Under the pieces are notes generated by a model that had not been told where the DNA came from, made no database searches, and saw nothing but the letters and a program-made list of their open reading frames with translations. A stretch of 21,912 nucleotides of DNA from a virus, in the IMG/VR virus record IMGVR_UViG_3300025102_000334, positions 1-21,912 of that record; one strand, written 5' to 3'. Of the stretch, positions 3-21,912 are shown piece by piece. The position numbers were made by a program, and so were the translations under genes. Within the stretch, counting starts at the first letter, position 1. Every line of letters starts with the position of its first letter.

Positions 3-701
3 GAACTGGTCTGGAAGTACCACGAGATGAACTTCGGGGAAACGGCCTACAAGCCCCGATTCGAGTTCTCGCTCGAGAAGAACGATCCGCATGAGTTTAT
101 GGAAGCTGTACGCGGATTCGTTGAGATGGGCGGCGAGGTATCACAGCGACAAGCACGCGAGATCCTTGGACTGACTGAACCCGAAGAGGGGGAGCCGGTT
201 CTCTCGAGTCAGCAGCAGCAAGAGCAAATGGCTGCACCAGGCCAAGAGGAAAAAAACCCATTGGAAGCGTTGCTTGGCGGCGGACAGCCCCGAAGTGAGG
301 CATTCAAGAAATACACCTACGCTCTTAAGACAGAGATGCAGAAGGAAGATGATTACAAGCCAACGGACGAGATGGCTTCACTTGCCGAACGGGGTCTTGA
401 GCTTCGAGAGGAGCATGGCCGAGGCGGCACATCTATAGGCGTAGCAAGAGCTAGAAACATCAAGAATAAAGATAACCTGTCTGCTGACACGGTAAAGCGT
501 ATGCATTCATTCTTCTCGAGACATCGGGTAGACCTTGACGCACCAGCAGCAAAGCGGGGACATGAAGATTATCCTTCGGCGGGTGTAATCGCCTGGATGC
601 TTTGGGGTGGAGATCCTTCAGACCCGGATGGCGCTGGAGCCGCCTGGGCAGAACGACACGCAGAAAAACTAGACAAAACCAAGAAGGACAACACCAAATG
701 A
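3..701 (+). CDS. Portal protein, C-terminal part (Mu gp29/DUF935-like) with an added C-terminal domain
   Basis: The reading frame is open to the left edge of the window, so this is the last 232 residues of a longer protein. The portal forms the ring at the capsid vertex through which DNA enters and leaves. The first 70 or so residues resemble the end of DUF935 portals: an aromatic/acidic strand (RFEFSLEKNDP), a helix about moving to a better 'premise', and the closing pattern GLTEPEEGEPVLS. After a Gln-rich linker comes a second domain with the motifs GRGGT, GVARARNI, RMHSFFSRH and SAGVIAWMLWGGD (about nt 360-640). I recognise this pattern from other phage virion and protease proteins, where its role is unknown. 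The stop overlaps the next start (ATGA). Portal assignment is inference from a C-terminal fragment and from synteny with MuF, protease and capsid genes. Confidence 0.72.
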   Translation, partial: ELVWKYHEMNFGETAYKPRFEFSLEKNDPHEFMEAVRGFVEMGGEVSQRQAREILGLTEPEEGEPVLSSQQQQEQMAAPGQEEKNPLEALLGGGQPRSEAFKKYTYALKTEMQKEDDYKPTDEMASLAERGLELREEHGRGGTSIGVARARNIKNKDNLSADTVKRMHSFFSRHRVDLDAPAAKRGHEDYPSAGVIAWMLWGGDPSDPDGAGAAWAERHAEKLDKTKKDNTK

Positions 702-2844: not shown

Positions 2845-4680
2845 TTGGCAAAGGTTCATACAGACAAAGAGTTTGATGACCTTATGGCAGCTGCTTTCGA
2901 GGAAAGCGTTGTTCCATACATTGAGGCGGTCGCATCGACTATTGAAGGAAGGGCAGATGGCCGAGCCTGGCACGACTTCGAGCTTGTCACGGCTCGCGCT
3001 ATTCTGCTTTCCTACCTGTTGGGCTTGTCTCAGGTCATCGAGGACGCTGAAATAGCTGGTGCTGATTTCTTCTCCGACAAGGCGACCTACGCTAAATCTG
3101 GATGCGGTGCAGGTGAGGACGATGCCCCAGGCTTCCAGCCAGGGAACACCTGCGCGGGTGAAGGTGGTAATCAATCAGGAGACACTGACAAGCCCAAGAA
3201 ACGGGTTCGATACGAAGCCGGAAGCAAGCTGACAAAGAAACAAAAAGAAGAGGTGCTGCAAAGTATTAACGACGTTTATTTGATGAACGGAATTAAGAAA
3301 GATGAGATTAAAGGGACGAACCACGACGGCGATCCCATATACGGTTATCCGCATCTTCCTGAGTTGTTCTATACGTCTGATATCACTGGAGCCAAGATTC
3401 GTCGTTTCATTACTTTGCCAGACGGTTCAATTGCACACCCTTCTGAGGTATACGGAGATCAAGTCAAGCAAAGTGAAATTCTTGCAGCTTTGGAGATGAA
3501 AGAACACACAAAGCGCATGGCGAAACTTGATGACGAACAAAGACTGACACGAGTAGTTGGAGTTGAAAATACCGAGGTCGCGAGAGGAATGAATCTCTTG
3601 GGCAAGGTTAACTTGCTGTATAACAAGACTGGAAATATGTTGCCTTATTCTTACCTTGCGGAATCTCCAGACGGAGAAGTTGTCAGGGTCAACGGGGCCA
3701 GCATGAAAGATATGGAGTTTTTCAACGACGCTGGGTTTGTTGCTCTAACCCCTCCGATTGATAAACCAGACAGTCTCACGTCAAACCAAATCAACTACCT
3801 TCGGAGTGTTGATAAAAAAGGCGATCTTCCTGATCAGGTGAAACAGGATTGGCCGGAAATCTTTGGCGAGGCTAAATCAAAGAACGCCAAGGCGACCTAC
3901 GCCAAGGAAGATTGGCCGATGGAGGTCGGATTCGAGGAGTTCGCTCCTGAGCCGTTCCAGGAGGCGATTGACCTGTTTGAAGATCGCGTTCCGATGCTGG
4001 CTCACAACGTCCCGCACATCGCTGAGATCGCCAGGCAGCAAGCCGCCGAGATTGCCATGGCTGAACGCATGGGCGTGGTCGCCAAGCTCGATGCCCAGTC
4101 AAATGCGATATCCAAGGCACTAGGACAGGCGTTCTGGGTTTCTGACGTTGACATGCCTACAACGATTGCCCTGAAAGACCTGATCGGCCAGGCGTTGCGG
4201 GGCGTGATGCCAGACGAACGCATGACCTTGCCTGAGTTTATTGACCGAGCATGGCTTGAGGGCGCGCAAAATCTTACGGCTGCACGACTTGAAACCGTTT
4301 ACAGGACAAATATGCAAACAGCCTTCAACGAAGGTCATATGTCCTCTATGCGGTCGCCGGAGGTCAAAAGCGTTGCACCCCTTGCAATGATCGTAGAAAT
4401 ACAAGATCCTCGTTCTCGAGATCACCACGCGGCAATGGATGGATACATCAATACGGTTGAGTATTTCGACCGCTTGCAGCTGGCTCCCCCTAACGGCTTC
4501 AATTGCAGGGGGACCGTTCGTGTCGTATCTTGGACCGAGGCGGAAAACCTTGGCCTGGTGGGCGATGACGGGGAAATCAATTGGAAAGCTCTCGAGCGGT
4601 ACAACGGCAATCGTCAGGGCTACATAGATCGCGGGGAATACCCCGATCCAGGATTCACAAAATCCGTCCAGGCAGCGTAG
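2845..4680 (+). CDS. MuF-like minor head protein (gp30/SPP1 gp7-like) with a large internal insert
   Basis: 611 residues. TTG is taken as start because AAGGA lies 7 bases upstream; the next in-frame ATG (2884) has no such site. The C-terminal part (about residues 480-590) carries the MuF signature: VYRTNMQTAFNEG, DPRSRDHHAAMDG and PPNGFNCRGT. MuF proteins associate with the portal and are needed for head assembly, and some are ejected with DNA. Residues 1-84 and 349 onward are helical and GC-rich, and read as one normal MuF N-terminal region. Between them lies a 270-residue block that begins with CGAGE-x4-GFQPGNTC (Cys87, Cys103), is AT-richer and is bounded by the repeated peptide KATYAK. 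I do not recognise a fold or active site in the insert. The gene sits one step before the protease/scaffold gene, as in Mu-type head modules. Confidence 0.88.
   Translation: MAKVHTDKEFDDLMAAAFEESVVPYIEAVASTIEGRADGRAWHDFELVTARAILLSYLLGLSQVIEDAEIAGADFFSDKATYAKSGCGAGEDDAPGFQPGNTCAGEGGNQSGDTDKPKKRVRYEAGSKLTKKQKEEVLQSINDVYLMNGIKKDEIKGTNHDGDPIYGYPHLPELFYTSDITGAKIRRFITLPDGSIAHPSEVYGDQVKQSEILAALEMKEHTKRMAKLDDEQRLTRVVGVENTEVARGMNLLGKVNLLYNKTGNMLPYSYLAESPDGEVVRVNGASMKDMEFFNDAGFVALTPPIDKPDSLTSNQINYLRSVDKKGDLPDQVKQDWPEIFGEAKSKNAKATYAKEDWPMEVGFEEFAPEPFQEAIDLFEDRVPMLAHNVPHIAEIARQQAAEIAMAERMGVVAKLDAQSNAISKALGQAFWVSDVDMPTTIALKDLIGQALRGVMPDERMTLPEFIDRAWLEGAQNLTAARLETVYRTNMQTAFNEGHMSSMRSPEVKSVAPLAMIVEIQDPRSRDHHAAMDGYINTVEYFDRLQLAPPNGFNCRGTVRVVSWTEAENLGLVGDDGEINWKALERYNGNRQGYIDRGEYPDPGFTKSVQAA
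3078..3092 (+). repeat. Left copy of a 15-bp direct repeat bounding the MuF insert
   Basis: The sequence caaggcgacctacgc occurs here and again at 3888-3902, in the same reading register, encoding the core of KATYAK at residues 79-84. Including the next three bases the match is 17 of 18. Confidence 0.92.
3888..3902 (+). repeat. Right copy of a 15-bp direct repeat bounding the MuF insert
   Basis: This copy is identical to 3078-3092. It encodes the second KATYAK (residues 349-354). The repeat-to-repeat distance is 810 bp, exactly 270 codons, so loss by recombination between copies would leave an intact MuF frame. Confidence 0.92.
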
Positions 4681-11866: not shown

Positions 11867-12789
11867 TGGCTGAAAACCTTGGACAAATCGACGTTGTAAT
11901 TCAATCTGATAATCAGACTCTTGTAGGGCCAGGAACAAGTCCAATAGGGCCAGGAGTCAGGCCAAGCGTGGGAGCAGCGACAGGAGCAGCAGCGGGAGCA
12001 GGAGCGGCTGGGTTTGCTAAAAGCCATCCAGTTCTATTAGGTCTTGCTGCCGCAGCTGCGGTTGCAACAGCAGGATTTTACGCAGCAGCAAAAGTTATTA
12101 AATCATGGAACAACGAAGCAAATGCACTTCGAGATCGTTTTGCTCGATTGAATAGCGGCGCGGCGTTGGCTGGAGCAATAAGGCAAGTCGGCCAGTTCAA
12201 ACGCGATATGGAAATGAGCAAGACGCTTGGCCCGTTGCTATTGAACCTAGAAAAAATGAGAGAACGAGTAGCAGACGGGTCTAATAAGCTACGGACGTTT
12301 ATTGCTGCCATTAAAGTAAGAGTTCTAACTTACTTGTTTGCTTTGTTTGCAAAGCTGCAAGAAAAAGTTCTTCCTAAGCTACTAGAAGCATTAGAAACTG
12401 CTGCAATAACCATTGCTAAAACAATGGAAACATTTGTTACGTTTGTTTCTGACATGCTTATTTCTTTTGGAAACATTATGACCGTTATGCTTCCATCAAT
12501 GCTAGGTGGCGCAGCGGGTGAAAGCATAACTTCGGTTGGCCTGGGCATTAGAGATATGCTTGAGTTCTTAAAGAAGATTGGCCGAGACGTAAACGATATT
12601 AAAAACCAGGGTGAAATAGATCCGACATCTACGGCAAACGCCTTAGTCATGCAACATTTGCAAACAATGACTGGCGGACTTTGGAAATACAGCACGCAAC
12701 AGCCTGGTGCATTGGCATCAGGAAGAGAACTAAACCCACAAGAGTTTAACCGCTTGTCTGATCAAGATAAAAAAAACTGGGGTAAATAA
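11866..12789 (+). CDS. Short tape-measure protein candidate
   Basis: 307 residues from the ATG overlapping the upstream stop; a longer frame exists but only as a shadow inside the previous gene. The protein has a Gly/Pro/Ala-rich start, a hydrophobic Ala-rich stretch (about residues 53-78, LLGLAAAAAVATAGFYAAA), long helices (LEKMRERVADGSNKLRTFI) and a second hydrophobic region around IAKTMETFVTFVSDML and MTVMLPSMLGG. These are marks of tape-measure proteins, which set tail length and enter the host membrane during injection. At about 0.15 nm per residue the predicted tail is only about 46 nm. Usual tape measures exceed 600 residues, so this is short for the class; no other gene in the window is a better candidate. 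Confidence 0.6.
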   Translation: MAENLGQIDVVIQSDNQTLVGPGTSPIGPGVRPSVGAATGAAAGAGAAGFAKSHPVLLGLAAAAAVATAGFYAAAKVIKSWNNEANALRDRFARLNSGAALAGAIRQVGQFKRDMEMSKTLGPLLLNLEKMRERVADGSNKLRTFIAAIKVRVLTYLFALFAKLQEKVLPKLLEALETAAITIAKTMETFVTFVSDMLISFGNIMTVMLPSMLGGAAGESITSVGLGIRDMLEFLKKIGRDVNDIKNQGEIDPTSTANALVMQHLQTMTGGLWKYSTQQPGALASGRELNPQEFNRLSDQDKKNWGK

Positions 12790-12791
12790 GA

Positions 12792-14786
12792 ATGGCAAAA
12801 TGGGCTGTTACTTACAATAATTTTGGTTCTGAAGGTGCTGCACAACACACTTGGTCGCATGTAAACATTAAATCGCAAACTGCCGATCCTGTATTTTCTG
12901 ACGATGGCATTTCAATAGAAACGGTTAAGCACACAATAACTGGAACAGCTCTTATCTCAGAAACTTCAGAAGCAAATTTCCGAACTGCTTTGTTGAACGC
13001 TCGAGAACACTTGACCAGTCAACCCATAAAAGGTGCTGCTACATCTATTCGCGTTTGGTTAGACTTTGCTGGTTCTGGCACAAATGAAATGTCATCAGGG
13101 CTAAACAGCGCAACTGGTGAAGACGGTCTTGATACAAAAATAAACACTTCTACGGCTCAAGGACGCTCTGTAGTTTATTTTGGGTCGATGGAAGATGATT
13201 ACGGAGCGCCTTCCTGCTCGTACTCAATTAACGAAGTGTATGGGACTCTTACAGCACTTGTGTCGTTTACTATTACCTGGCACAAAATTGAACCACCAGC
13301 TAATGACGTTACTTATCACGTTCTTAGTCACACCTGGACGCAAGAATACACAATAGACAATGCAGGATCGACTACCCTTGTTATTGACGGACAGCTCAGG
13401 GTAAGAAACTTTATTGATGGCCAAATGAACCTTGGTGCTTTTTCAACCACAGGATCTAGAGGCGCAAACCCAGACCGATACAGAACGCTTGTAATGCCCA
13501 CAGTTCCACCTAACTATCGTGTGGAATCAATGCGTTGGGCTACTGACACAACTGGTTGCAAGCTTCTGTATCGAATAACTCTCAAAGAGTACGCCAGGCC
13601 GTTGCCATATCCGGCAAAAGTTGGAACGGGACGATTTACTTACCAACGTGGCTTAGGCAATATGCTTGGTACAAAGAGATTTGAAGGCGAATTAGAAGGC
13701 GATGTAAATTCAGATCCTCGAGAGCTGTTAAACTCTTTGATTCGTATTGCTTCATCAAGAATTAGTTTTGGTGGTGCAGTAGGAAACACAGACCAAACGG
13801 TAGATCGAATTGATTCTATTACTGTTTCTGAAAATGACATATTTTCTAAACGGTCTATTTCCTTGAGCATTATTGCTACAGGGATGCAAACTACTTCACA
13901 GTTTGGCCTGGATGATTCAGAAGGATCTACGGGAGAGGGATTTGGTTTGCTTAAACCGTTCTTCTCTCAAGACAATCTTTCAGTAGCACCGAGACCAAAC
14001 GAATACGGGGCGCAACTGATTTCGTCAGTAAAACGTCAGTTGTTTTTGCCTTGGAACCCAGATGATTCAGAAGGTTGGGATGCAACTGAATTTCCTGTTG
14101 CCACTTGGCGCACTGCAACCGAATGGAGTGGGGAAGACGTAGCTCTCGAGTTTGACGAAACTAAGTTTGAAGAAGCCGCATCTCCTCCAGTAGAACAAGA
14201 CGGCGAACACACAAGTGACAACATAACTTCAACTGGTCATGTAAAATTCCCTTACGGACATGTTTCTGGTTCTGAATCCGTAACTACGAAAAATAACATT
14301 GTTGTAGTTTCTTCTATGCACGCAAACGCCAGCGACCGTGTGTATCAAAGCGGGTCGCCTGAAGTTTACATTGAGTCTGAATATCAAATCTCACGGGCTG
14401 GAAAACCCCCAAGACGCATTACGTTGTCTAAACCAAACAACGGAATTACCCTCGAAGAATCGTTTATTGTTAGTCGAGGAGACGTAGACGCAAATAATAA
14501 CCGAACCTACATTGGGGTCTATCGAAGAGTTGTAAGGCTTCTTGACAATGCAGATTCGTCTGGTTTCTACATAACAAACGTAAACATCCCTGGCTGGGGC
14601 GAACAAACATTCACTGCCTGGTGGCCTCCAAACCGATCTATTAGCTCTCCTGGTGATCCTCGATTTGAAGGAAATGACAATTTGCCTGGGTCTGTGACGA
14701 GAAACCTGTTTGAAATTAACGAAAGCGCACCGGGAGTAGGACAGACGTTTAAACTTGGTCAACCAGATCAAATTTACGGGGACTAA
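12792..14786 (+). CDS. Large virion protein, distal tail/baseplate candidate
   Basis: 664 residues starting 3 bases after the tape-measure stop. It is almost entirely beta-type with abundant Thr, Ser, Asn and aromatic residues, typical of tail proteins. Segments such as TVKHTITGTALISETSEANFRTALLNAREHL (read as strand, then helix) in the first 80 residues recall the start of distal tail proteins that form a ring on the tube; the rest has repeated strand-turn patterns (ITLKEYARPLPYPAK, SISLSIIATGMQTTS, RVVRLLDNADSSGFYI). No enzymatic motif is seen. I do not recognise the exact family. Its position just after the tape measure argues for a Dit- or baseplate-like role. Confidence 0.62.
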   Translation: MAKWAVTYNNFGSEGAAQHTWSHVNIKSQTADPVFSDDGISIETVKHTITGTALISETSEANFRTALLNAREHLTSQPIKGAATSIRVWLDFAGSGTNEMSSGLNSATGEDGLDTKINTSTAQGRSVVYFGSMEDDYGAPSCSYSINEVYGTLTALVSFTITWHKIEPPANDVTYHVLSHTWTQEYTIDNAGSTTLVIDGQLRVRNFIDGQMNLGAFSTTGSRGANPDRYRTLVMPTVPPNYRVESMRWATDTTGCKLLYRITLKEYARPLPYPAKVGTGRFTYQRGLGNMLGTKRFEGELEGDVNSDPRELLNSLIRIASSRISFGGAVGNTDQTVDRIDSITVSENDIFSKRSISLSIIATGMQTTSQFGLDDSEGSTGEGFGLLKPFFSQDNLSVAPRPNEYGAQLISSVKRQLFLPWNPDDSEGWDATEFPVATWRTATEWSGEDVALEFDETKFEEAASPPVEQDGEHTSDNITSTGHVKFPYGHVSGSESVTTKNNIVVVSSMHANASDRVYQSGSPEVYIESEYQISRAGKPPRRITLSKPNNGITLEESFIVSRGDVDANNNRTYIGVYRRVVRLLDNADSSGFYITNVNIPGWGEQTFTAWWPPNRSISSPGDPRFEGNDNLPGSVTRNLFEINESAPGVGQTFKLGQPDQIYGD

Positions 14787-14791
14787 ACGAT

Positions 14792-16987
14792 ATGGGAATA
14801 CAGCCAGAAGAAGGTTACAACCCGCTAGGAAGAGTTGAAATATCTTTTGGCGCAGAAGGTTTAGATGTCGTTAGTCCAGTCTCAATATCAAAACCTGTTG
14901 CAAACCTTCTTAAATCCGCAGGGTGGAACCCAGAAGAGTTTAATAAAGTTACTTGGCCTATTGGTGCTGCTAATCATGGCCTGGCTCGATTTCTTATTGA
15001 CGGCAAAACAGCTAACGCAATAGCAGAAACGCTACAAGAAAACTTTATTACGGATGAAGATACTGGTTGGTATCGAAACGACGGAATAACAATAACATTT
15101 GATGGGTTGTTGTTTGACGGGATGCACATGCTTGCGCCTGTCCCGGTGTTGTCTCCGTCTACATATGCAGAAGACGTACAGTTTTACGTTTGCGACTTTG
15201 TGGATTACCGATATTGGTGGCAAAAACACACTATAGGATCACCGTATTTTGTTCCTACTGGAGACGGTGGCACTGAACGCAAAGAAAGTCAATTTCAATA
15301 CGGAATTAACATGCTTGAAGAAAGCATGGGACCAGGTGTTTTTCATCCAGAAACTATCTTTCAATCAAACGACACAAGTGACATACTTTGGAACCTCCCT
15401 AGGCTGCTTAACTTTATGCTTGGGTTGTACGATACAGACGAATTAGGATTTGATGGTCGTACTGAATTTTATTACTTACCAGTCGTAGACGCCTGGCGTT
15501 ACGATCAAAATTCAGATTCAAGTGCTTTTTCAACAGACGATCTTATTGACATAAGTGTTTCTGGAAGGCCATTTGGTGAGTTTTTAGATTCTATTCTTAC
15601 GTTGACAGGTCATGTGCTAATTGCATATCCAAGCGAATTTTGGGCTGGTGAGTTGTCAAGAAGGTATTGGATTTCGCCAATAGAAAACCAACAACCTTTG
15701 TTTGACGATGAAGAGTTTACAGAACAGTTTGAACACAGCATTGTTTCTGGCGGAATGTTGCCAACAGTTGTTCGTGGAGGGACTGAAGTAATTACAGACC
15801 CGACCCTGGATATGGCTCCAGCTTCTATTGCTGCATCTGTACCTGAATTTATTAACGTATTTTTCCGAAACGCATTTTATGGCGGTGCGCCAAGCGAATA
15901 CATTGAAGAAAACCCCGAACACAATCCGGCTTTGTCAGATTACCAAGTAGTCCAATCACTAGACGAAAGTTTGAACCTTCGTCCAGACATTTTTTGGAAG
16001 GGTAGACTTCATTCTGTTTACGCTACTTTACCAGCCGTTAAACAATACTCAAATGAAGAAACAAGTTGGACTAACGAAAACGCATGCGTTAATCAAGCAA
16101 ACCGAATTGGCCGAAGATTTTACGATAGATTTAGATGCGATCCAGTAAATGTAATTCTTACGGGCACGTTTGGAAATCTTAATGACTTAGTGCTTTGGCC
16201 TGGGGCGCAAGAAATTACTTGGTCAATCACGGGGCGGGGTCCAGTTACTAAGATTATAGGATCTTACAATCATCCTTTGTTTGGGATGATGCCAGACAAC
16301 AATCTAAGCTCTGGAAGTGTTACTTCTACTGCAACTACAAAAGTCGTTCATAGACCAGACGGAAGACTCAACATATCTTCTGCCCCTGTCGATGTTCGGC
16401 AAACTGTGTACCACGCAGTAATAACTGAAGTTAACCAATCAAGTGCTGCTCAAAGACCTTACTACAGTGCAGAAGCAGTTACAGACGCTCGAGTAGCAGT
16501 TGTAAACATTGCACCGAGAAGCGTCCACGATTCTGACAAGGTAGATATTAAGCCGTTGCAAGTTGGGGACTTCTGTATGATTGGGGTTTTGCCAAATACA
16601 GATGACGAGGGGATTGCTTCAAGAAACGTAGTGGTTAATCCAATTGCGCCAGGCATTAGAACTTTGAACGGAAACGGAAGTACGACCGTCATAAGTCAAA
16701 GATCAATGGTTCAGCCGCAGCAAAAATATCAAAATATAGATCCTGTATTCAATCCAAACGTGCCACAAGAAATAATTAGTTCGGCGGAAAAAGGCATAGA
16801 TATAACGAATGGTATGTTTGGTCAATTTACACCAGGTCAAATCTACAAAGTAGGAACTGGTGAAGATGAGTTATCATTGGTTTTGTATGTATGGGAATAC
16901 CCTTTGTATTCTGCATGCACAAGTGAACCGGGATTTCGCAGCGCCGGATTCTTTGGCGACTATATTGCAACAATGGGTAGGTATTAA
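14792..16987 (+). CDS. Large virion protein, tail hub/tip candidate
   Basis: 731 residues, second large gene after the tape measure, where hub (Tal/gp27-type) proteins are encoded. The first part is strand-rich and aromatic (YVCDFVDYRYWWQK). A middle part contains LIDISVSGRPFGEFLDSILTLTG, a pattern like the small domain of hub proteins that begins 'D-I-S-x-x-G-x-x-x-x-E-x-L-x-x-I'. Further on are ANRIGRRFYDRFRCDPVNVILTG and LVLWPGAQEITWSI, which again recall hub beta-barrel domains. The C-terminal 180 residues look like a separate region (KVVHRPDGRLNISSAP onward). No lysozyme or peptidase motif is seen. A hub function is inference from position and pattern. Confidence 0.62.
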   Translation: MGIQPEEGYNPLGRVEISFGAEGLDVVSPVSISKPVANLLKSAGWNPEEFNKVTWPIGAANHGLARFLIDGKTANAIAETLQENFITDEDTGWYRNDGITITFDGLLFDGMHMLAPVPVLSPSTYAEDVQFYVCDFVDYRYWWQKHTIGSPYFVPTGDGGTERKESQFQYGINMLEESMGPGVFHPETIFQSNDTSDILWNLPRLLNFMLGLYDTDELGFDGRTEFYYLPVVDAWRYDQNSDSSAFSTDDLIDISVSGRPFGEFLDSILTLTGHVLIAYPSEFWAGELSRRYWISPIENQQPLFDDEEFTEQFEHSIVSGGMLPTVVRGGTEVITDPTLDMAPASIAASVPEFINVFFRNAFYGGAPSEYIEENPEHNPALSDYQVVQSLDESLNLRPDIFWKGRLHSVYATLPAVKQYSNEETSWTNENACVNQANRIGRRFYDRFRCDPVNVILTGTFGNLNDLVLWPGAQEITWSITGRGPVTKIIGSYNHPLFGMMPDNNLSSGSVTSTATTKVVHRPDGRLNISSAPVDVRQTVYHAVITEVNQSSAAQRPYYSAEAVTDARVAVVNIAPRSVHDSDKVDIKPLQVGDFCMIGVLPNTDDEGIASRNVVVNPIAPGIRTLNGNGSTTVISQRSMVQPQQKYQNIDPVFNPNVPQEIISSAEKGIDITNGMFGQFTPGQIYKVGTGEDELSLVLYVWEYPLYSACTSEPGFRSAGFFGDYIATMGRY

Positions 16988-17338
16988 ATGGCACTAGCTA
17001 CAGCAAACGCAAAAGGTTTGTACGAAGGTACGGATGAAATAACTCTAGTCCCATCGGAACCCAACGGGCTAAGTGTCGTTACGATGCTTCGAGTTGTAAA
17101 CACTGACACTACAACCATTATTCCTATACTAAGAATTTTGGACGAAAACAAACTTGGACTTGATGAAGAGTATTTGAAATTGATACCCGACATTACTTTG
17201 CAAACATCGGAGTATTTGGAGTATCAAGGCGTTGTTTGCGTTCTTAGTCCAGGCCAAAGCTTGGTAACAAAACTTACATCTTCTGTTTCTGCTAACGAAC
17301 CAGAGTGGACAGTAGTGTGGGCAAAGGAAACTTTCTAA
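16988..17338 (+). CDS. Small tail-tip-associated protein, unknown function
   Basis: 116 residues whose ATG follows the hub candidate's stop directly. It is beta-rich: strands SVVTMLRVVNTDTT, IIPILRILD, YLEYQGVVCVLSPGQSLVTKLTS and EWTVVWAKETF suggest a small beta-sandwich. Similar compact proteins of about 110 residues are common after the hub genes of siphoviruses and are thought to sit on the tail tip. No specific family is recognised. Confidence 0.62.
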   Translation: MALATANAKGLYEGTDEITLVPSEPNGLSVVTMLRVVNTDTTTIIPILRILDENKLGLDEEYLKLIPDITLQTSEYLEYQGVVCVLSPGQSLVTKLTSSVSANEPEWTVVWAKETF

Positions 17339-17967
17339 TGGGCGTTCAAGTATACGACAGTAGCGGAAGGCTAAAGACTAACTCTGTCACAACTATTGAC
17401 AGCAACCAGTTGGGCCACCCAGGCTTTAGGACCGATCAAACAACTGATGGTTTTTACCTTGGTTACACAACCACGGGTAACGACGCTGGGATTGCTCACA
17501 ATGCTGCAACTATGTATCAGCTCTGGTACATCCCGTACACGATTGCTATTGCCCAGTATGGGATCAATGGCGACGATGCTGGAAACACTGGCAGCTTGAA
17601 AATCGCCATGTACACAAACGTAAATGGTTTGCCGTCATCCAAAATAGCGGCAACTGAAGGGGCGATTACAGGAAACGGAACAGGCGATTCGTCTGTGGCG
17701 TTCGTGACAGCTCCTACCCTAACAGCAGGTTGGTATTGGATGGGGTCTCACATTGCATCTGGAGCAATCGACATTGAGCATTCGTACTCAGGCGCGGTAA
17801 ACAACAGCAAATCTTTCTATTCACAACCGCTTTCCACATTTAACGCCGACTTTGGTTGTTACCTGGAAACCAACTCAACTTCTGATCTTCCAACAAACGC
17901 AAATGCTAATAGCAAAATGTCCGCAGGTTACGTTCCTCGAATCGGAATAAGGTTTACTTCAGCATGA
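17338..17967 (+). CDS. Tail fibre/receptor-binding protein candidate
   Basis: 209 residues from the ATG overlapping the upstream stop (TAATG); a GTG at 17305 in the same frame lies inside the previous gene. It is rich in Gly, Thr, Ser and Asn, with strands such as TMYQLWYIPYTIAIAQYGI, SLKIAMYTNVNGLPSSKIA and LTAGWYWMGSHIASG. The 'sensor' pattern of a jelly-roll with 'G-x-L-K-I-A-M-Y' and 'L-x-A-G-x-Y-W' is frequent in phage tail surface and receptor-binding proteins. The stop overlaps the next start (ATGA). Receptor binding is inferred from the fold pattern and position. Confidence 0.6.
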   Translation: MGVQVYDSSGRLKTNSVTTIDSNQLGHPGFRTDQTTDGFYLGYTTTGNDAGIAHNAATMYQLWYIPYTIAIAQYGINGDDAGNTGSLKIAMYTNVNGLPSSKIAATEGAITGNGTGDSSVAFVTAPTLTAGWYWMGSHIASGAIDIEHSYSGAVNNSKSFYSQPLSTFNADFGCYLETNSTSDLPTNANANSKMSAGYVPRIGIRFTSA

Positions 17968-18311
17968 GCAATTACAAATCAACAATGAGGTGTAGCCAGG
18001 ATGGATCGGTCATCGAGATTATTGATGAGCGCGAGGTTGAAGCTGTCCGCACTTATCGTTTGTCTAGTATTCGTAAGCGAGCGGCCAGGCACATCGAAGA
18101 ATTTGTGCCAGAGTTCAAGCAACGGAACATTGCAATGGGCATTATCAAGGGGGAAGAAAAAACATCTCTCCTGGCAAAGATCAATTCAGTTCGAGATTAT
18201 TGCAATGGACTCGAGGAACAAATCAATGCGGTTGCCTGGGACGGAAAAGCGTCTTCCCGTGCGTCGGCATGTGACGAGATCGAATCCGTAGGTTGGAATT
18301 ATGAGGGTTAA
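17964..18311 (+). CDS. Small helical protein of unknown function in the tail-tip region
   Basis: 115 residues overlapping the fibre candidate by four bases. It has a short strand-like start (DGSVIEIIDEREVEAVRTYR), then long charged helices (SSIRKRAARHIEEFVP, LLAKINSVRDYCNGLEEQINAVAWDG) that may form a coiled coil. Sequence PEFKQRNIAMG resembles the 'P-x-x-K-Q-R-N' stretch seen in small proteins encoded beside tail fibres, some of them fibre chaperones; this is suggestive only. It is more GC-rich than its neighbours. Confidence 0.6.
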   Translation: MSNYKSTMRCSQDGSVIEIIDEREVEAVRTYRLSSIRKRAARHIEEFVPEFKQRNIAMGIIKGEEKTSLLAKINSVRDYCNGLEEQINAVAWDGKASSRASACDEIESVGWNYEG

Positions 18312-18314
18312 ACA

Positions 18315-19721
18315 ATGAAGGTGTGGCCGTATGATTACGACGAAGACTTTCAATTTAATGAACTTCGTGGAATAGAAGGCGATCCAGACACGAAGAAAAT
18401 CCTTACTCGTCTTAGAGTCGCAGACGGTACTTTTAGATATGTCATCAGAACAGACGATGAAGGAAACAGAACACTAACAACGGTATCTGAGTCTAATGAC
18501 TACGAATGCCCTGAGTGTTGCCCAGAAGACGATGGTGGAGGCGGCGGCGGCGGGGGTGCAGGATCGTGTAGCCCATGTTGGACGCCAAACAATTCAAACG
18601 GTTACACAGGGTTTAGCGGTTCATTTACAACACAATGTCAAAGAAACCCAGACGCTCACCTTCTAAATACATGCGCAAACTGTTGTAGTTATACATCTAC
18701 GTTTGACGATCCGTGTTGGGGTGGAGATTACGGATATTGCATTGGTTGTAGCGCGTGTTACTCTGACATAAATGGTTACGCTGACGCTTCAATATGTGGT
18801 CAAACATACGGGTTTAACAGCCCAAATTTGTTTTATCAAACAAAGCTTATTGTTGTAGGAAGTGAACCAGTATTTGAAGAAGGCGCTGGGTATTGCGCTA
18901 ATATGCAAGCGATTCTTGACGCAAATGCTTACGGGTCTTGTCAGTGGTATTCTGTTCCAACTGTTTCTATACATATGTCTGTATCTTGGAACGACAACAA
19001 CAATGATGATTACGAGCATTATGTAGGTTGCCCACCATTTGTAACATGCGAAGATTGTACTAAACAAAGTCCTAATCAAACTTGTCCCCCTTCTGGACTA
19101 TGCGTAGAGCTTACTGGAGAACAAAATTGTGGTGGGTGTAATGCTTGTTTTGGAACTGCATACCCAGGCGATGGGCAATGGGAAGCTACAACCAATGAAA
19201 ACGGAGTTGGTGGAGGTTGCTGGATTCTAAGTATGTGGGCTAGGGAAGATTGCACGGCAAGCAAATGTACAGAATGGTGGGCAAACAAAAGGCTTTGTTC
19301 TGAACAAACTAATTGTCAGGGAGGAATGCCAGACGATATTGAAGAAATGAGGCCAGGCGTAGATTGTGAATGCAACTGTTCAGCAGATTCACTTGGATAC
19401 GAACTGGGATATGGCTCTTGCTCACATTGTTCATCAGGATGCACGGCAAGAAGTGAAATGTATGGAGCAGCTTTGATTGTAAATACTGACCTTGAGGGTG
19501 CGTGTTCGCCGAAACCATACAACTTAAAAACCAAATGGGGTTGGGAAGGTGGTTGTGGTGACAATTGTGGCGGCGATGAAATGCCGTGTGGATATGGAAC
19601 TGAAGAAGGTTGTGTAGACGAAAACGGAGATCCACTGCCCTGGGCTAGTTGCGGGACGCCTTGTTTCTTTGGCTATTCTTACGAAGCTTATTGCAAGGCT
19701 ACATCGTTTAGTTTCATTTAG
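18315..19721 (+). CDS. Extremely cysteine-rich tail-region protein
   Basis: 468 residues with 43 cysteines (about 9%). The first 65 residues are ordinary (a small alpha/beta start with RLRVADGTFRYVIRTDDEG). Then follows CPECC, an eight-glycine tract, and a body with many CxxC pairs: CSPC, CANCC, CIGCSAC, CEDC, CGGCNAC, CECNC, CSHCSSGC, CGDNC, CGTPC. It is also rich in Tyr, Trp, Gly and Asn and has no signal peptide. The cysteines could be disulfides formed after release from the cell, giving a rigid extracellular spike or fibre, or could bind metals. Position after the tail tip genes suggests a virion surface protein. I do not recognise a family. Confidence 0.78.
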   Translation: MKVWPYDYDEDFQFNELRGIEGDPDTKKILTRLRVADGTFRYVIRTDDEGNRTLTTVSESNDYECPECCPEDDGGGGGGGGAGSCSPCWTPNNSNGYTGFSGSFTTQCQRNPDAHLLNTCANCCSYTSTFDDPCWGGDYGYCIGCSACYSDINGYADASICGQTYGFNSPNLFYQTKLIVVGSEPVFEEGAGYCANMQAILDANAYGSCQWYSVPTVSIHMSVSWNDNNNDDYEHYVGCPPFVTCEDCTKQSPNQTCPPSGLCVELTGEQNCGGCNACFGTAYPGDGQWEATTNENGVGGGCWILSMWAREDCTASKCTEWWANKRLCSEQTNCQGGMPDDIEEMRPGVDCECNCSADSLGYELGYGSCSHCSSGCTARSEMYGAALIVNTDLEGACSPKPYNLKTKWGWEGGCGDNCGGDEMPCGYGTEEGCVDENGDPLPWASCGTPCFFGYSYEAYCKATSFSFI

Positions 19722-19750
19722 TCTGAATTGTTAGGGAAGAACAACAAACT

Positions 19751-20401
19751 ATGTCCGTACCATTTAAATCTAATTTTACTGTTTGCGATGAAGTGGGCGG
19801 CGTAAATCAATGCGTCGAGCTGTTCTTTAATAGCAATTTGCAACTGCTTAATGTGTCTGAGCCATACGAAGCTAAAGAAGGAACAATTCCGGTTGTTCAT
19901 CCAGATGGTTATTTGGTTGAAGTAGTAAAAATGTCAGATATGACTGACGAGCAAATAGCTGCTTTGACTCATAATGGAAAACCAAATGATGAAGCAATGG
20001 AATTTCGACCCGAAAGCGATGCTTGGCATTTGCGAGATGCCTCAACAAACGAAAGCGGTTTAAATAAACTGTCTCAAGGACAAGACGAGCCAGGTTGCAC
20101 CGCATGCGAGCAACGCAAAAAAGAGTTGGAACTTCTAAACAATGACGTACAACACCAAAAAGCAACAAAGAAGAACCTTCTTAGTAGACTAGCTAAAGGC
20201 GTGCCAGGGCTGCTTAAATCTGAACTGGGCATTAACCAGGCGAGCTTAGAGGTGGTTGACAAACGGAAATCTATCTGTTTGAATTGCCCTGAAGGTATTT
20301 ACAACTTCGGAGTGTGTGACGAGGAGCGGGGTGGGTGTGGTTGTTTCTTGGCGTCCAAGGTAACAATAGAAGGTGAGTCTTGCCCGAAAGGTCATTGGTG
20401 A
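19751..20401 (+). CDS. Protein with C-terminal zinc-ribbon-like cysteine motif
   Basis: 216 residues; a GGGAAG site lies about a dozen bases before the ATG. The N-terminal 100 residues are strand-rich (FTVCDEVGG, CVELFFNSNLQLLNV, EGTIPVVHPDGYLVEVVKM). A CTAC pair at residues 116-119 precedes a charged helix. The C-terminus (176-216) has CLNC, then Cys189, CGC (196-198), FLASKVTIEG and CPKGHW, a pattern known from many phage and cyanophage proteins that end in CGCF...K...CP.G.W and are thought to bind zinc. Function is unknown. It lies directly after the cysteine-rich protein, so the two may act together. The stop overlaps an ATG in another frame that opens only 24 codons. Confidence 0.72.
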   Translation: MSVPFKSNFTVCDEVGGVNQCVELFFNSNLQLLNVSEPYEAKEGTIPVVHPDGYLVEVVKMSDMTDEQIAALTHNGKPNDEAMEFRPESDAWHLRDASTNESGLNKLSQGQDEPGCTACEQRKKELELLNNDVQHQKATKKNLLSRLAKGVPGLLKSELGINQASLEVVDKRKSICLNCPEGIYNFGVCDEERGGCGCFLASKVTIEGESCPKGHW

Positions 20402-20416
20402 TGCAGGGATACGCAG

Positions 20417-21235
20417 ATGCCAGATACAGCAAGATTCGCGGCCATATCGTGCGTTCACGTTGGCCCAGCTTCTAAAGAACGTCTCAGGTCGCTGGATTTC
20501 ATACTTAGCACCCTGACGGATGATCAGAAGCACAACGGACCATTACAATCATTTGTGATGTTGGGCGACCTGTTGGATGCCCAGGCGGCGTCGGTTCACC
20601 CAAGAGATGACAACATCGAGCATACCCTCGAGGACGAGTTTCGTGATGGAGCTGACTATCTTGAGGCGATTAGGCGAGAGCTTCCAAAAAACTGTGACCT
20701 TATCTGGTGCTTGGGTAATCACGATTCCAACATCCTGGTAGCGGACGCTAGGCGAATTCAATCTGATCTAAGGTCATTGTGTGACTGGAACGCCCATGCC
20801 GAGCATGGCAAGGTGTATCGCAAGTGGCGACAGGTTCCGTACCAGAAGCCATCTATCCATGATCGCAAGGGGTGCTATGAGCTTGGCCAGGCGGTGTTCT
20901 TTCACGGGTTTGATGCCGGTAGCAACTCTGACGAACTCGAGGGGCTTCAGGTTGCTTACGCCTTGGGTGGCAATGCCCACAGGTTGATGGTCAGGGGTCA
21001 CACCCACAGGCCGAAACACGTTACCCAGTGCAAGCGGAGTGCAAACGTGCTTCTTCCGTACTGGTACGCCAATGCAGGGACGGCGGGACCGATGGGCATG
21101 GAAGTCCCCTACATGCAGCGGAAAGATCAGAACCAATGGAACTGTGGCGTGGTTATTGGAGAAGCCAAGCTTGGACGAGTGGGGCGGATGAACGGGAAAT
21201 GCTGGAGTGCCAGGACGGTGATTCGTGACCAATGA
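20417..21235 (+). CDS. Calcineurin-like metallophosphoesterase with altered first metal motif
   Basis: 272 residues with AGGG 8 bases before the ATG. Four of five family motifs are clear: GDLLD (residues 50-54), GNHD (100-103), a lone His in FFHG (163) and GHTH (194-197). The first motif, normally D-x-H, reads C12-V13-H14 within ISCVHVG. Family members use two metal ions to cleave phosphoester bonds of nucleotides, nucleic acids or proteins; the substrate here is unknown. The gene starts a GC-rich stretch that contrasts with the AT-rich tail genes. It overlaps the next gene by 11 bases. A role in DNA metabolism or in countering host signalling are both possible. Confidence 0.85.
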   Translation: MPDTARFAAISCVHVGPASKERLRSLDFILSTLTDDQKHNGPLQSFVMLGDLLDAQAASVHPRDDNIEHTLEDEFRDGADYLEAIRRELPKNCDLIWCLGNHDSNILVADARRIQSDLRSLCDWNAHAEHGKVYRKWRQVPYQKPSIHDRKGCYELGQAVFFHGFDAGSNSDELEGLQVAYALGGNAHRLMVRGHTHRPKHVTQCKRSANVLLPYWYANAGTAGPMGMEVPYMQRKDQNQWNCGVVIGEAKLGRVGRMNGKCWSARTVIRDQ

Positions 21236-21506
21236 CAGGTTCAAAAGTAACGACTCATGCGACGATCCCAAATTGTTCAAGTGGCTTGACATCACCAGTC
21301 AATCAGAACCGTGGATGTCGCTGGATGATGCCTTGGAAATGAAGCCTGCTGTAATGATGTCGGTTGGCTGGATTGTCAAAGAAACCCCTGAATACATCAC
21401 GATTGCCAGCACCTACGACACGGACGAAGAGCTTGTTGGAGATGTGAACTGCATACCCCGCAAGACCATTATGGAAATCATCCCGGTGCGTCCGGTCAAC
21501 ATCTAG
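21225..21506 (+). CDS. Small conserved phage protein of unknown function
   Basis: 93 residues from a GTG with AGGA 9 bases upstream, overlapping the end of the phosphoesterase gene. The core pattern WLDITSQSEPWMSLDDALEM, then SVGWIVKETPEYITIAST, then GDVNCIPRKTIMEI, is one I recognise from small proteins in many unrelated phages (a 'x-V-G-W-x-x-x-E-T' strand, then 'x-x-N-x-I-P-x-x-x-I'), a compact beta-barrel-like layout. No function is known for them. It is probably expressed with its neighbours. Confidence 0.72.
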   Translation: MTNDRFKSNDSCDDPKLFKWLDITSQSEPWMSLDDALEMKPAVMMSVGWIVKETPEYITIASTYDTDEELVGDVNCIPRKTIMEIIPVRPVNI

Positions 21507-21525
21507 CCTTGCTCCAGGTGTAGCC

Positions 21526-21885
21526 ATGAAGAATGTCACGATTCGGGGCGGCAAGTCACACGAACGCGAATACGTCGAGAAGTCTGTGGCCTGGTGCATT
21601 AGACGCCTAGGGCTGAACACCCTGCACACCCTGAAGGTGGCTGTGGTCATCAAGCCGTTGGACGATTGTTGCGGCTGGTGCAGGCCGGTGGCCGACTCCA
21701 ACCGTGCCTTCCAGATCGTCGTAGCCAACAACCAGAGCCTCCGAAACTTCGTGATGACCGTGGTGCATGAGATGATCCATGTGAAACAGTACGCAAGGAA
21801 CGAGTGGCTGATTGACGGTGAGCCGGAGGCGTGGGGTAGCCAAGAGATCCTGACGGACGAACTGTGGCTTGCCGACGTGCTTTGA
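21526..21885 (+). CDS. Small zincin-like metallopeptidase
   Basis: 119 residues. The HExxH motif is HEMIH (His81, Glu82, His85) within a helix preceded by FVMTVV, and a glutamate in GEPEAWG (Glu99 or Glu101) can be the third zinc ligand, as in SprT-like and related phage zincins. The N-terminal half is an alpha/beta lead-in (HTLKVAVVIKPL), followed by CCGWC (48-52), a cysteine cluster that may bind a second metal or form a disulfide. Such single-domain proteins are found in phage accessory regions; targets are unknown. The ATG at 21526 has no strong ribosome site (GGTG some bases before). The remaining 27 bases to the window end hold no gene. Confidence 0.78.
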   Translation: MKNVTIRGGKSHEREYVEKSVAWCIRRLGLNTLHTLKVAVVIKPLDDCCGWCRPVADSNRAFQIVVANNQSLRNFVMTVVHEMIHVKQYARNEWLIDGEPEAWGSQEILTDELWLADVL

Positions 21886-21912
21886 TGGGCGCATAGATAA
21901 AGCCCCGTCTTA

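Follow-up and report, generated by a model that had tools for sequence, protein, structure and literature searches.

A cysteine-rich protein encoded in an exchangeable tail-gene cassette of a marine tailed phage: a candidate disulfide-locked adhesin with a zinc-ribbon-like partner

Introduction

Receptor-binding proteins of phages are assembled in the reducing cytoplasm and, to our knowledge, are seldom thought of as cysteine-rich. The question raised by the locus described here is what 43 cysteines might do in a single protein encoded among phage tail genes. The window, that is, the whole stretch of DNA analyzed, comes from an uncultured phage; it comprises 21,912 bases and is listed as a virus record in IMG/VR. 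The explanation that we consider best, with a probability of roughly one half, is that the product of the gene at 18315-19721 is a swappable tail-tip adhesin that is locked by disulfides after release and served by a zinc-ribbon-like assembly partner absent from the virion.

The cysteine-rich gene and its surroundings

The window carries a head protein of the Mu F/SPP1 gp7 type; a terminase and a portal of the Mu type (E 4.9e-58) are encoded on contig 3300030098_001864 (here L027), which belongs to the same group. By terminase and portal, the nearest cultured relatives are only 25-26% identical and uninformative on the host. The genes relevant to the locus are the following, where L023 denotes contig 3300025168_000354, a sister phage of the window.

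14792..16987, + strand: putative tail hub, judged from its position; 731 aa
17338..17967, + strand: left-flank gene of the cassette, for a tail-fibre-like protein with the N-terminus YDSSGRLKTNSV; 96% identity to the L023 product
17964..18311, + strand: conserved 115-aa protein directly before the cassette, no putative role assigned; 96% identical in L023
18315..19721, + strand: cysteine-rich protein, ATG start, 468 aa, 43 Cys (9.2%)
19751..20401, + strand: partner protein, 216 aa, 10 Cys
20417..21235, + strand: metallophosphoesterase (Pfam Metallophos, above cut-off), right flank; 99% identical in L023

The putative hub matches no family in Pfam or PHROG. Further downstream, a 119-aa protein (21526-21885) with an HExxH motif, weak matches to SprT/DUF6782 metallopeptidases and assignment to phrog_10499 is 97% identical in L023 and has no match in the related contigs L007, L022 or L024. 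Two head-region proteins (602-2557 and 2845-4680), otherwise different, share a tag-like stretch, SGCGAG-x5-GFQPGNTCxG, that holds a pair of cysteines.

The coordinates and cysteine count given for the gene by the initial annotation were reproduced exactly. Across the other 24 open reading frames of the window, cysteine averages 0.9% (60 of 6655 residues), and the second-highest content, 4.6%, belongs to the next gene. About 15 cysteine codons would be expected from base composition and about 21 from codon-position composition, versus the 43 present. Among 141 distinct mechanical reading frames of at least 300 aa, taken from both strands of all loci compared, nine reach 6% cysteine and eight reach 9%, and all eight are the 18315-19721 protein and its counterparts.

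The product is acidic (65 Asp+Glu versus 22 Lys+Arg, predicted pI 4.1) and contains only four histidines; after the N-terminal segment, its roughly 400 residues are acidic and rich in Gly, Asn, Asp and Tyr. Two features of its first part stand out:

18315..18506, + strand: residues 1-64, an N-terminal segment free of cysteine, to which a model of very low confidence gives three strands
18534..18557, + strand: run of eight glycines, residues 74-81, between C65PEC and C85SPC

The odd total of 43 cysteines leaves at least one unpaired or paired between chains. Neither a signal peptide nor a membrane-type stretch was found (maximum 19-residue Kyte-Doolittle mean 0.57), and the protein matched no Pfam family (E 10), no PHROG (E 1), nothing in 50,697 phage records and no PDB sequence credibly. 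AlphaFold2 on a two-sequence alignment gave a mean pLDDT of 27, which is unusable.

Exchange of the cassette between related phages

Comparison of the window with L023 at the DNA level delimits a cassette, the right edge of which divides the partner gene into two parts:

18316..20156, + strand: extent of the exchanged cassette, which lies between flanks of 92.4% and 97.4% identity to L023 and itself gives no blastn alignment
19751..20158, + strand: variable N-terminal part, the first 136 codons of the partner gene, sharing 27 of 114 aligned residues (24%) with L023
20159..20401, + strand: constant C-terminal part of the partner, last 80 codons; 72 of 78 aligned residues (92%) identical to L023

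The flanks comprise 17338-18315 (92.4%) and 20157-21912, the window end (97.4%), and between them blastn returned nothing at E 1e-5. On the left, the alignment reaches just one base into the start codon of the cysteine-rich gene; on the right, it resumes inside the partner gene after about 136 codons. The flanking products are 96, 96, 99, 99 and 97% identical, and the cysteine-rich proteins are without a match: at this place L023 encodes an unrelated 650-aa protein with 68 cysteines. The same borders recur in a second relative, L022, at lower identities of 78.8% and 94.6%. The tail genes upstream are only 25-56% identical between the window and L023, and the picture is therefore one of a mosaic tail with a hypervariable cassette.

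Such replacement of a whole gene together with half of its neighbor would be the hallmark of a recognition protein and a partner matched to it, and the pattern is, as far as the sequences indicate, the behavior of a host-range cassette comprising an adhesin and its matching partner. It conforms to the class of swappable tail adhesins with a cognate chaperone in that the putative adhesin is exchanged among near relatives and the partner co-varies with it. The earlier suggestion that the two genes form a functional unit is thus borne out by the joint exchange of the cysteine-rich gene and the first half of its partner.

Cassettes of a tail fibre and a fibre-assembly chaperone are familiar from phage Mu (S/U) and phage T4 (gp37/gp38). 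Likewise in these systems, an adhesin and a downstream partner are swapped together while a constant region is retained. The present cassette differs in that no tail-fibre or chaperone family is matched, the putative adhesin is cysteine-rich, and the constant part is the C-terminus of the partner.

Alleles at the locus and selection on the cysteines

Contigs 3300025086_000176 and 3300006737_000008 belong with the window to one near-identical population, so that the independent alleles number one with 43, one with 44, two with 68 and one with 21 cysteines. The 44-Cys homologue, found by searching viral contigs (L007:13537-14985), is 60% identical and retains a run of seven glycines matching the run of eight in the window protein. 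At the same gene place, L022 encodes a 639-aa protein which, like the 650-aa protein of L023, contains 68 cysteines. A third allele (L024:5188-7122; 644 aa) contains only 21 (3.3%) and is present in two contigs, one of them incomplete; its start lies on contig 3300008050_003965.

Between the 43- and 44-Cys proteins, 42 of the 43 cysteines are kept, against 56% identity at all remaining positions (binomial tail 7e-10), the difference consisting of one single cysteine and one cysteine shifted by a residue. Of these 42 conserved codons, 24 are TGT in one gene and TGC in the other; of 110 four-fold degenerate sites, 38 are the same, which is near random. Since the cysteines persist although synonymous sites are saturated, these codons indicate that the cysteines are under selection. 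The two 68-Cys alleles behave alike, keeping 66 of 68 (binomial tail 1e-9) with TGT/TGC switches in 28 of the 66 conserved codons. Each possesses two cysteines absent from the other (C159 and C191 in one, C571 and C634 in the other), so that parity is maintained; paired differences of this kind would look like gain or loss of disulfides, and two such events prove little.

The initial annotation had regarded homologues lacking the cysteines as damaging to its view. The 21-Cys allele of L024 does exist and demonstrates that the position does not require cysteines, but it has no detectable homology to the window protein, whereas the sole full-length homologue is the 44-Cys protein with its near-complete conservation. 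A sequence link between the 43- and 68-Cys alleles was considered and rejected (composition-corrected blastp E 0.26, hhalign probability 0.2%), and an uncorrected match of the window protein to the L022 allele (E 3.7e-5) was attributed to composition.

The extreme composition, and alleles that differ wholly between sister phages as recognition modules do, could also be explained by mimicry of a cysteine-rich host surface protein, for example one that pairs with host envelope proteins by disulfide exchange. None of our results favored this idea, which had been part of the initial annotation: searches of genome contigs with the 43/44-Cys alignment and the capsid protein as queries recovered no relative and no host homologue, Pfam and PDB sequences contained no homologue, and no plasmid homologue of the 68-Cys allele was found. 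Mimicry is therefore regarded as very improbable.

Counterparts in cultured cyanophages

Support for a place of the protein in the virion comes from P-SS2, a cultured siphophage of Prochlorococcus. Its ORF084 (PSS2_gp084), a protein of 2612 aa with 282 cysteines (10.8%), is encoded directly upstream of ORF085, which belongs to the same family as the zinc-ribbon-like partner (phrog_13558, E 3.5e-13). In three replicate proteomes of purified virions, ORF084, listed as "Unknown structural protein", was represented by an average of 43 peptides; among the rows listed, more were recorded only for ORF030 (96.5), ORF077 (102) and ORF086 (45), and an equal number for ORF079 (PMC2784084). This count covers the whole protein, including its cysteine-poor last 700 or so residues. 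ORF085 yielded 0 peptides (PMC2784084). The P-SS2 table attaches no adhesin label to ORF084, and the word cysteine is absent from the text consulted (PMC2784084).

ORF084 resembles the window protein in its 9-11% cysteine, its acidity, its location in a tail cluster after the hub and the phrog_13558 gene directly next to it. It differs in length and number of cysteines, in lacking any composition-corrected similarity and in spacing, with 92 CxxxxxC versus 36.8 expected and 28 CxxC versus 36.8 expected. A weak match of ORF084 to DUF7107 was noted (24.9 bits, cut-off 24.6).

Smaller counterparts, all annotated as hypothetical proteins, occupy the same place in three further cultured cyanosiphophages: S-CRES3 gp92 (539 aa, 11.3% Cys), S-CRES1 gp85 (514 aa, 10.3%) and S-CBS2 gp029 (500 aa, 11.8%), the last having been found with the cysteine-rich query and not with the zinc-ribbon query. 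The gene order in these phages is tape measure, hub, small reading frames, cysteine-rich gene and zinc-ribbon gene, with one to four genes between the last two. A second, smaller cysteine-rich protein, gp98 (L061:19295-20335; 23 Cys in 346 aa), is encoded directly after the zinc-ribbon gene of S-CRES3; its positional counterpart in S-CBS2, gp035, has only 2.9% cysteine.

When the tail proteins of the window group were compared with P-SS2 and S-CRES3 by composition-corrected blastp, only the zinc-ribbon partner matched (E ~1e-8). Five alleles gave no such match to the cyanophage cysteine-rich proteins at E 0.01, and matches down to 5e-10 appeared only with the correction switched off; of the three smaller counterparts, gp92 alone was compared with the window protein, and composition-corrected similarity was absent. 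The loci therefore have in common the family of the partner, the gene place and the composition, but no detectable homology of the cysteine-rich proteins: the locus is like that of ORF084 in combining at least 9% cysteine in a tail cluster with a downstream phrog_13558 gene, and unlike it in sequence. By this analogy of place and partner, the window protein is plausibly a virion protein of the tail-tip region, as initially proposed, given that its positional counterpart in P-SS2 was identified in virions by mass spectrometry.

Alternatively, the gene might encode a non-virion product, such as an intracellular or lysis-released factor, that happens to lie among tail genes. There is a precedent in the neighboring ORF085 of P-SS2, which is missing from the virions despite its location inside the structural cluster. 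In contrast, the positional counterpart of the cysteine-rich protein itself is among those P-SS2 virion proteins that were detected comparatively well, an exposed adhesin would fit the swapping of the cassette, and no secretion signal is present, which makes a non-virion product improbable.

The zinc-ribbon-like partner

The initial annotation had noticed a zinc-ribbon-like cysteine motif at the end of the next gene, and this observation was confirmed by a family assignment: residues 163-216 match positions 19-68 of the 69-position profile of phrog_13558 (E 6.2e-9). The constant end comprises a helix and a zinc-ribbon-like domain with six conserved cysteines and a terminal tryptophan. The Pfam family DUF6171 (PF19668) scores 13.5 bits against a curated cut-off of 27, so that the partner falls outside this family, and the counterparts from P-SS2 and S-CRES3 score 22.6 and 22.9. 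AlphaFold2 on five partner sequences gave a mean confidence of 47.6 with the zinc-ribbon end below 50, which is unusable, and Foldseek against the PDB produced 0 matches at E 0.001.

Among annotated phages, the partner query retrieved 11 records, taken as eight phages and including P-SS2 and the Synechococcus phages S-CRES1-3. A cysteine-rich neighbor accompanies the family in three of the seven phages examined (S-CRES2 was left out) and is missing from four, namely a Helicobacter prophage, ACP17, Sf-FS3 and V45v66. The task of the partner is thus not confined to cysteine-rich proteins. Because its counterpart is absent from P-SS2 virions and half of it is swapped with the cysteine-rich gene, the role that best suits the zinc-ribbon protein is that of a partner in assembly or folding.

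Disulfides or metal

A virion protein with 43 to 282 cysteines must either bind metal in the cytoplasm or oxidize later. The first possibility is a metal-loaded tail protein that folds in the cytoplasm, its cysteines coordinating zinc or iron-sulfur clusters and its zinc-ribbon partner loading the metal. The window protein contains nine CxxC pairs, several of them arranged as CxxC-x16..23-CxxC in the manner of zinc knuckles and kept in L007; knuckle-like sets occur at residues 65/68..85/88, 120/123..142/145 and 245/248..272/275. CxxCxxC is present twice (residues 142-148 and 272-278), and a zinc-ribbon-like protein adjoins. There is also a precedent for metal at a tail tip in gpL of phage lambda, in which four cysteines hold one iron-sulfur cluster (PMC10721106). 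The window protein shares with gpL the presence of cysteines in a tail-tip protein; it differs in having 43 of them and in matching neither gpL nor any zinc-finger or Fe-S family in Pfam and PHROG.

The initial annotation had also drawn attention to the repeated CxxC and CxxCxxC motifs. These are indeed present, yet as a distinctive feature they are weak: nine CxxC versus 4.5 expected from shuffling the cysteine-rich stretch is a mild enrichment (p ~0.02, uncorrected), only 16 of the 43 cysteines lie within CxxC, and the 68-Cys alleles show no excess (nine versus 7.7 and eight versus 7.5 expected). The repeated CxxC are therefore mostly a by-product of cysteine content. As neither the 68-Cys alleles nor P-SS2 ORF084 show an enrichment of CxxC, and thus the knuckles are not common to all alleles, a metal-loaded spike is disfavored and appears rather unlikely; the scarcity of histidine points the same way. 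Folding by disulfides after release, likewise raised at the outset, is favored instead, although the window allele could also hold a few metal sites.

According to this disulfide reading, the protein would be a surface-exposed, exchangeable adhesin of a marine tailed phage. Its short cysteine-free N-terminal segment, the proposed virion anchor, would dock it on the tail tip, and the roughly 400 residues that follow would form a compact domain held mainly by disulfides, and these bonds would close when the particle has left the reducing cytoplasm. The adhesin would be assisted in assembly or folding by the downstream protein, a dedicated partner that stays out of the virion: the variable N-terminal half of this partner would match the particular adhesin and be exchanged with it, and its constant zinc-ribbon-like end would have a more general function, perhaps keeping hold of the thiol-rich chain before it folds or binding to a constant component of the tail.

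A broader and tentative extension, possible but on balance doubtful, is that unrelated siphophages of the ocean share a module for thiol management. The zinc-ribbon partner would keep an adhesin of 9-12% cysteine reduced, perhaps capped with zinc, the adhesin would become a disulfide-locked spike upon lysis into oxygenated seawater, and the adhesin and half of the partner would be traded as a cassette. Phage-encoded oxidation machinery was sought as Thioredoxin-family matches, of which there were none in six of six uncultured contigs and three of four cultured records; P-SS2 has one. A cysH-like gene as a general supply of cysteine was discarded: a PAPS-reductase-like frame (L027:10946-11812, - strand) occurs in one of the eight contigs searched and scores 18.1 bits, below the family cut-off of 22.5.

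Apart from a remark on a cysteine-rich tail spike in two archaeal virus genomes, made in the context of viruses of methanogens and methanotrophs (PMC9723712), no description of a class of cysteine-rich adhesins was found in the open-licence literature searched. The section that contains the remark differs from the present case in giving no cassette, partner protein or virion proteomics. A recurring class with 9-12% cysteine and a genetic partner would constitute a further means of stabilizing adhesins, besides beta-helices and metal-tipped spikes, and the combination of a cysteine-rich gene with phrog_13558 could serve as a marker for host-range genes in uncultured marine phages. It also raises the question, open to direct testing, of how a phage folds proteins so rich in thiols, for which the cultured P-SS2 is suited.

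Further observations on related contigs

The two ends of contig 3300006737_000008 (35,144 bases; L005 and L006) overlap inside the gene for the 731-aa hub (residues 1-437 and 397-731), which suggests that the genome, of about 35 kb, is complete and circularly permuted. A protein of 117 aa that has a single hydrophobic segment at its center and is PEP-CTERM-like at its end is encoded at L027:11820-12173 (- strand) and L030:6797-7150 (+ strand) and is a possible host clue; the guess of a planctomycete host from this tail was dropped, the family scores being far below the cut-off. On contig 3300030098_001864, three reading frames on the - strand (L027:13354-14280, 12554-13357 and 17276-18166) concern cytosine modification: a TET/JBP-type oxygenase (PF12851, E 9.7e-22) lies beside a TET-associated glycosyltransferase (PF20691, E 1.2e-6), and further on from the oxygenase there is a frame that by eye resembles a cytosine methyltransferase. 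Judged from these genes, the phage probably hypermodifies its cytosines.
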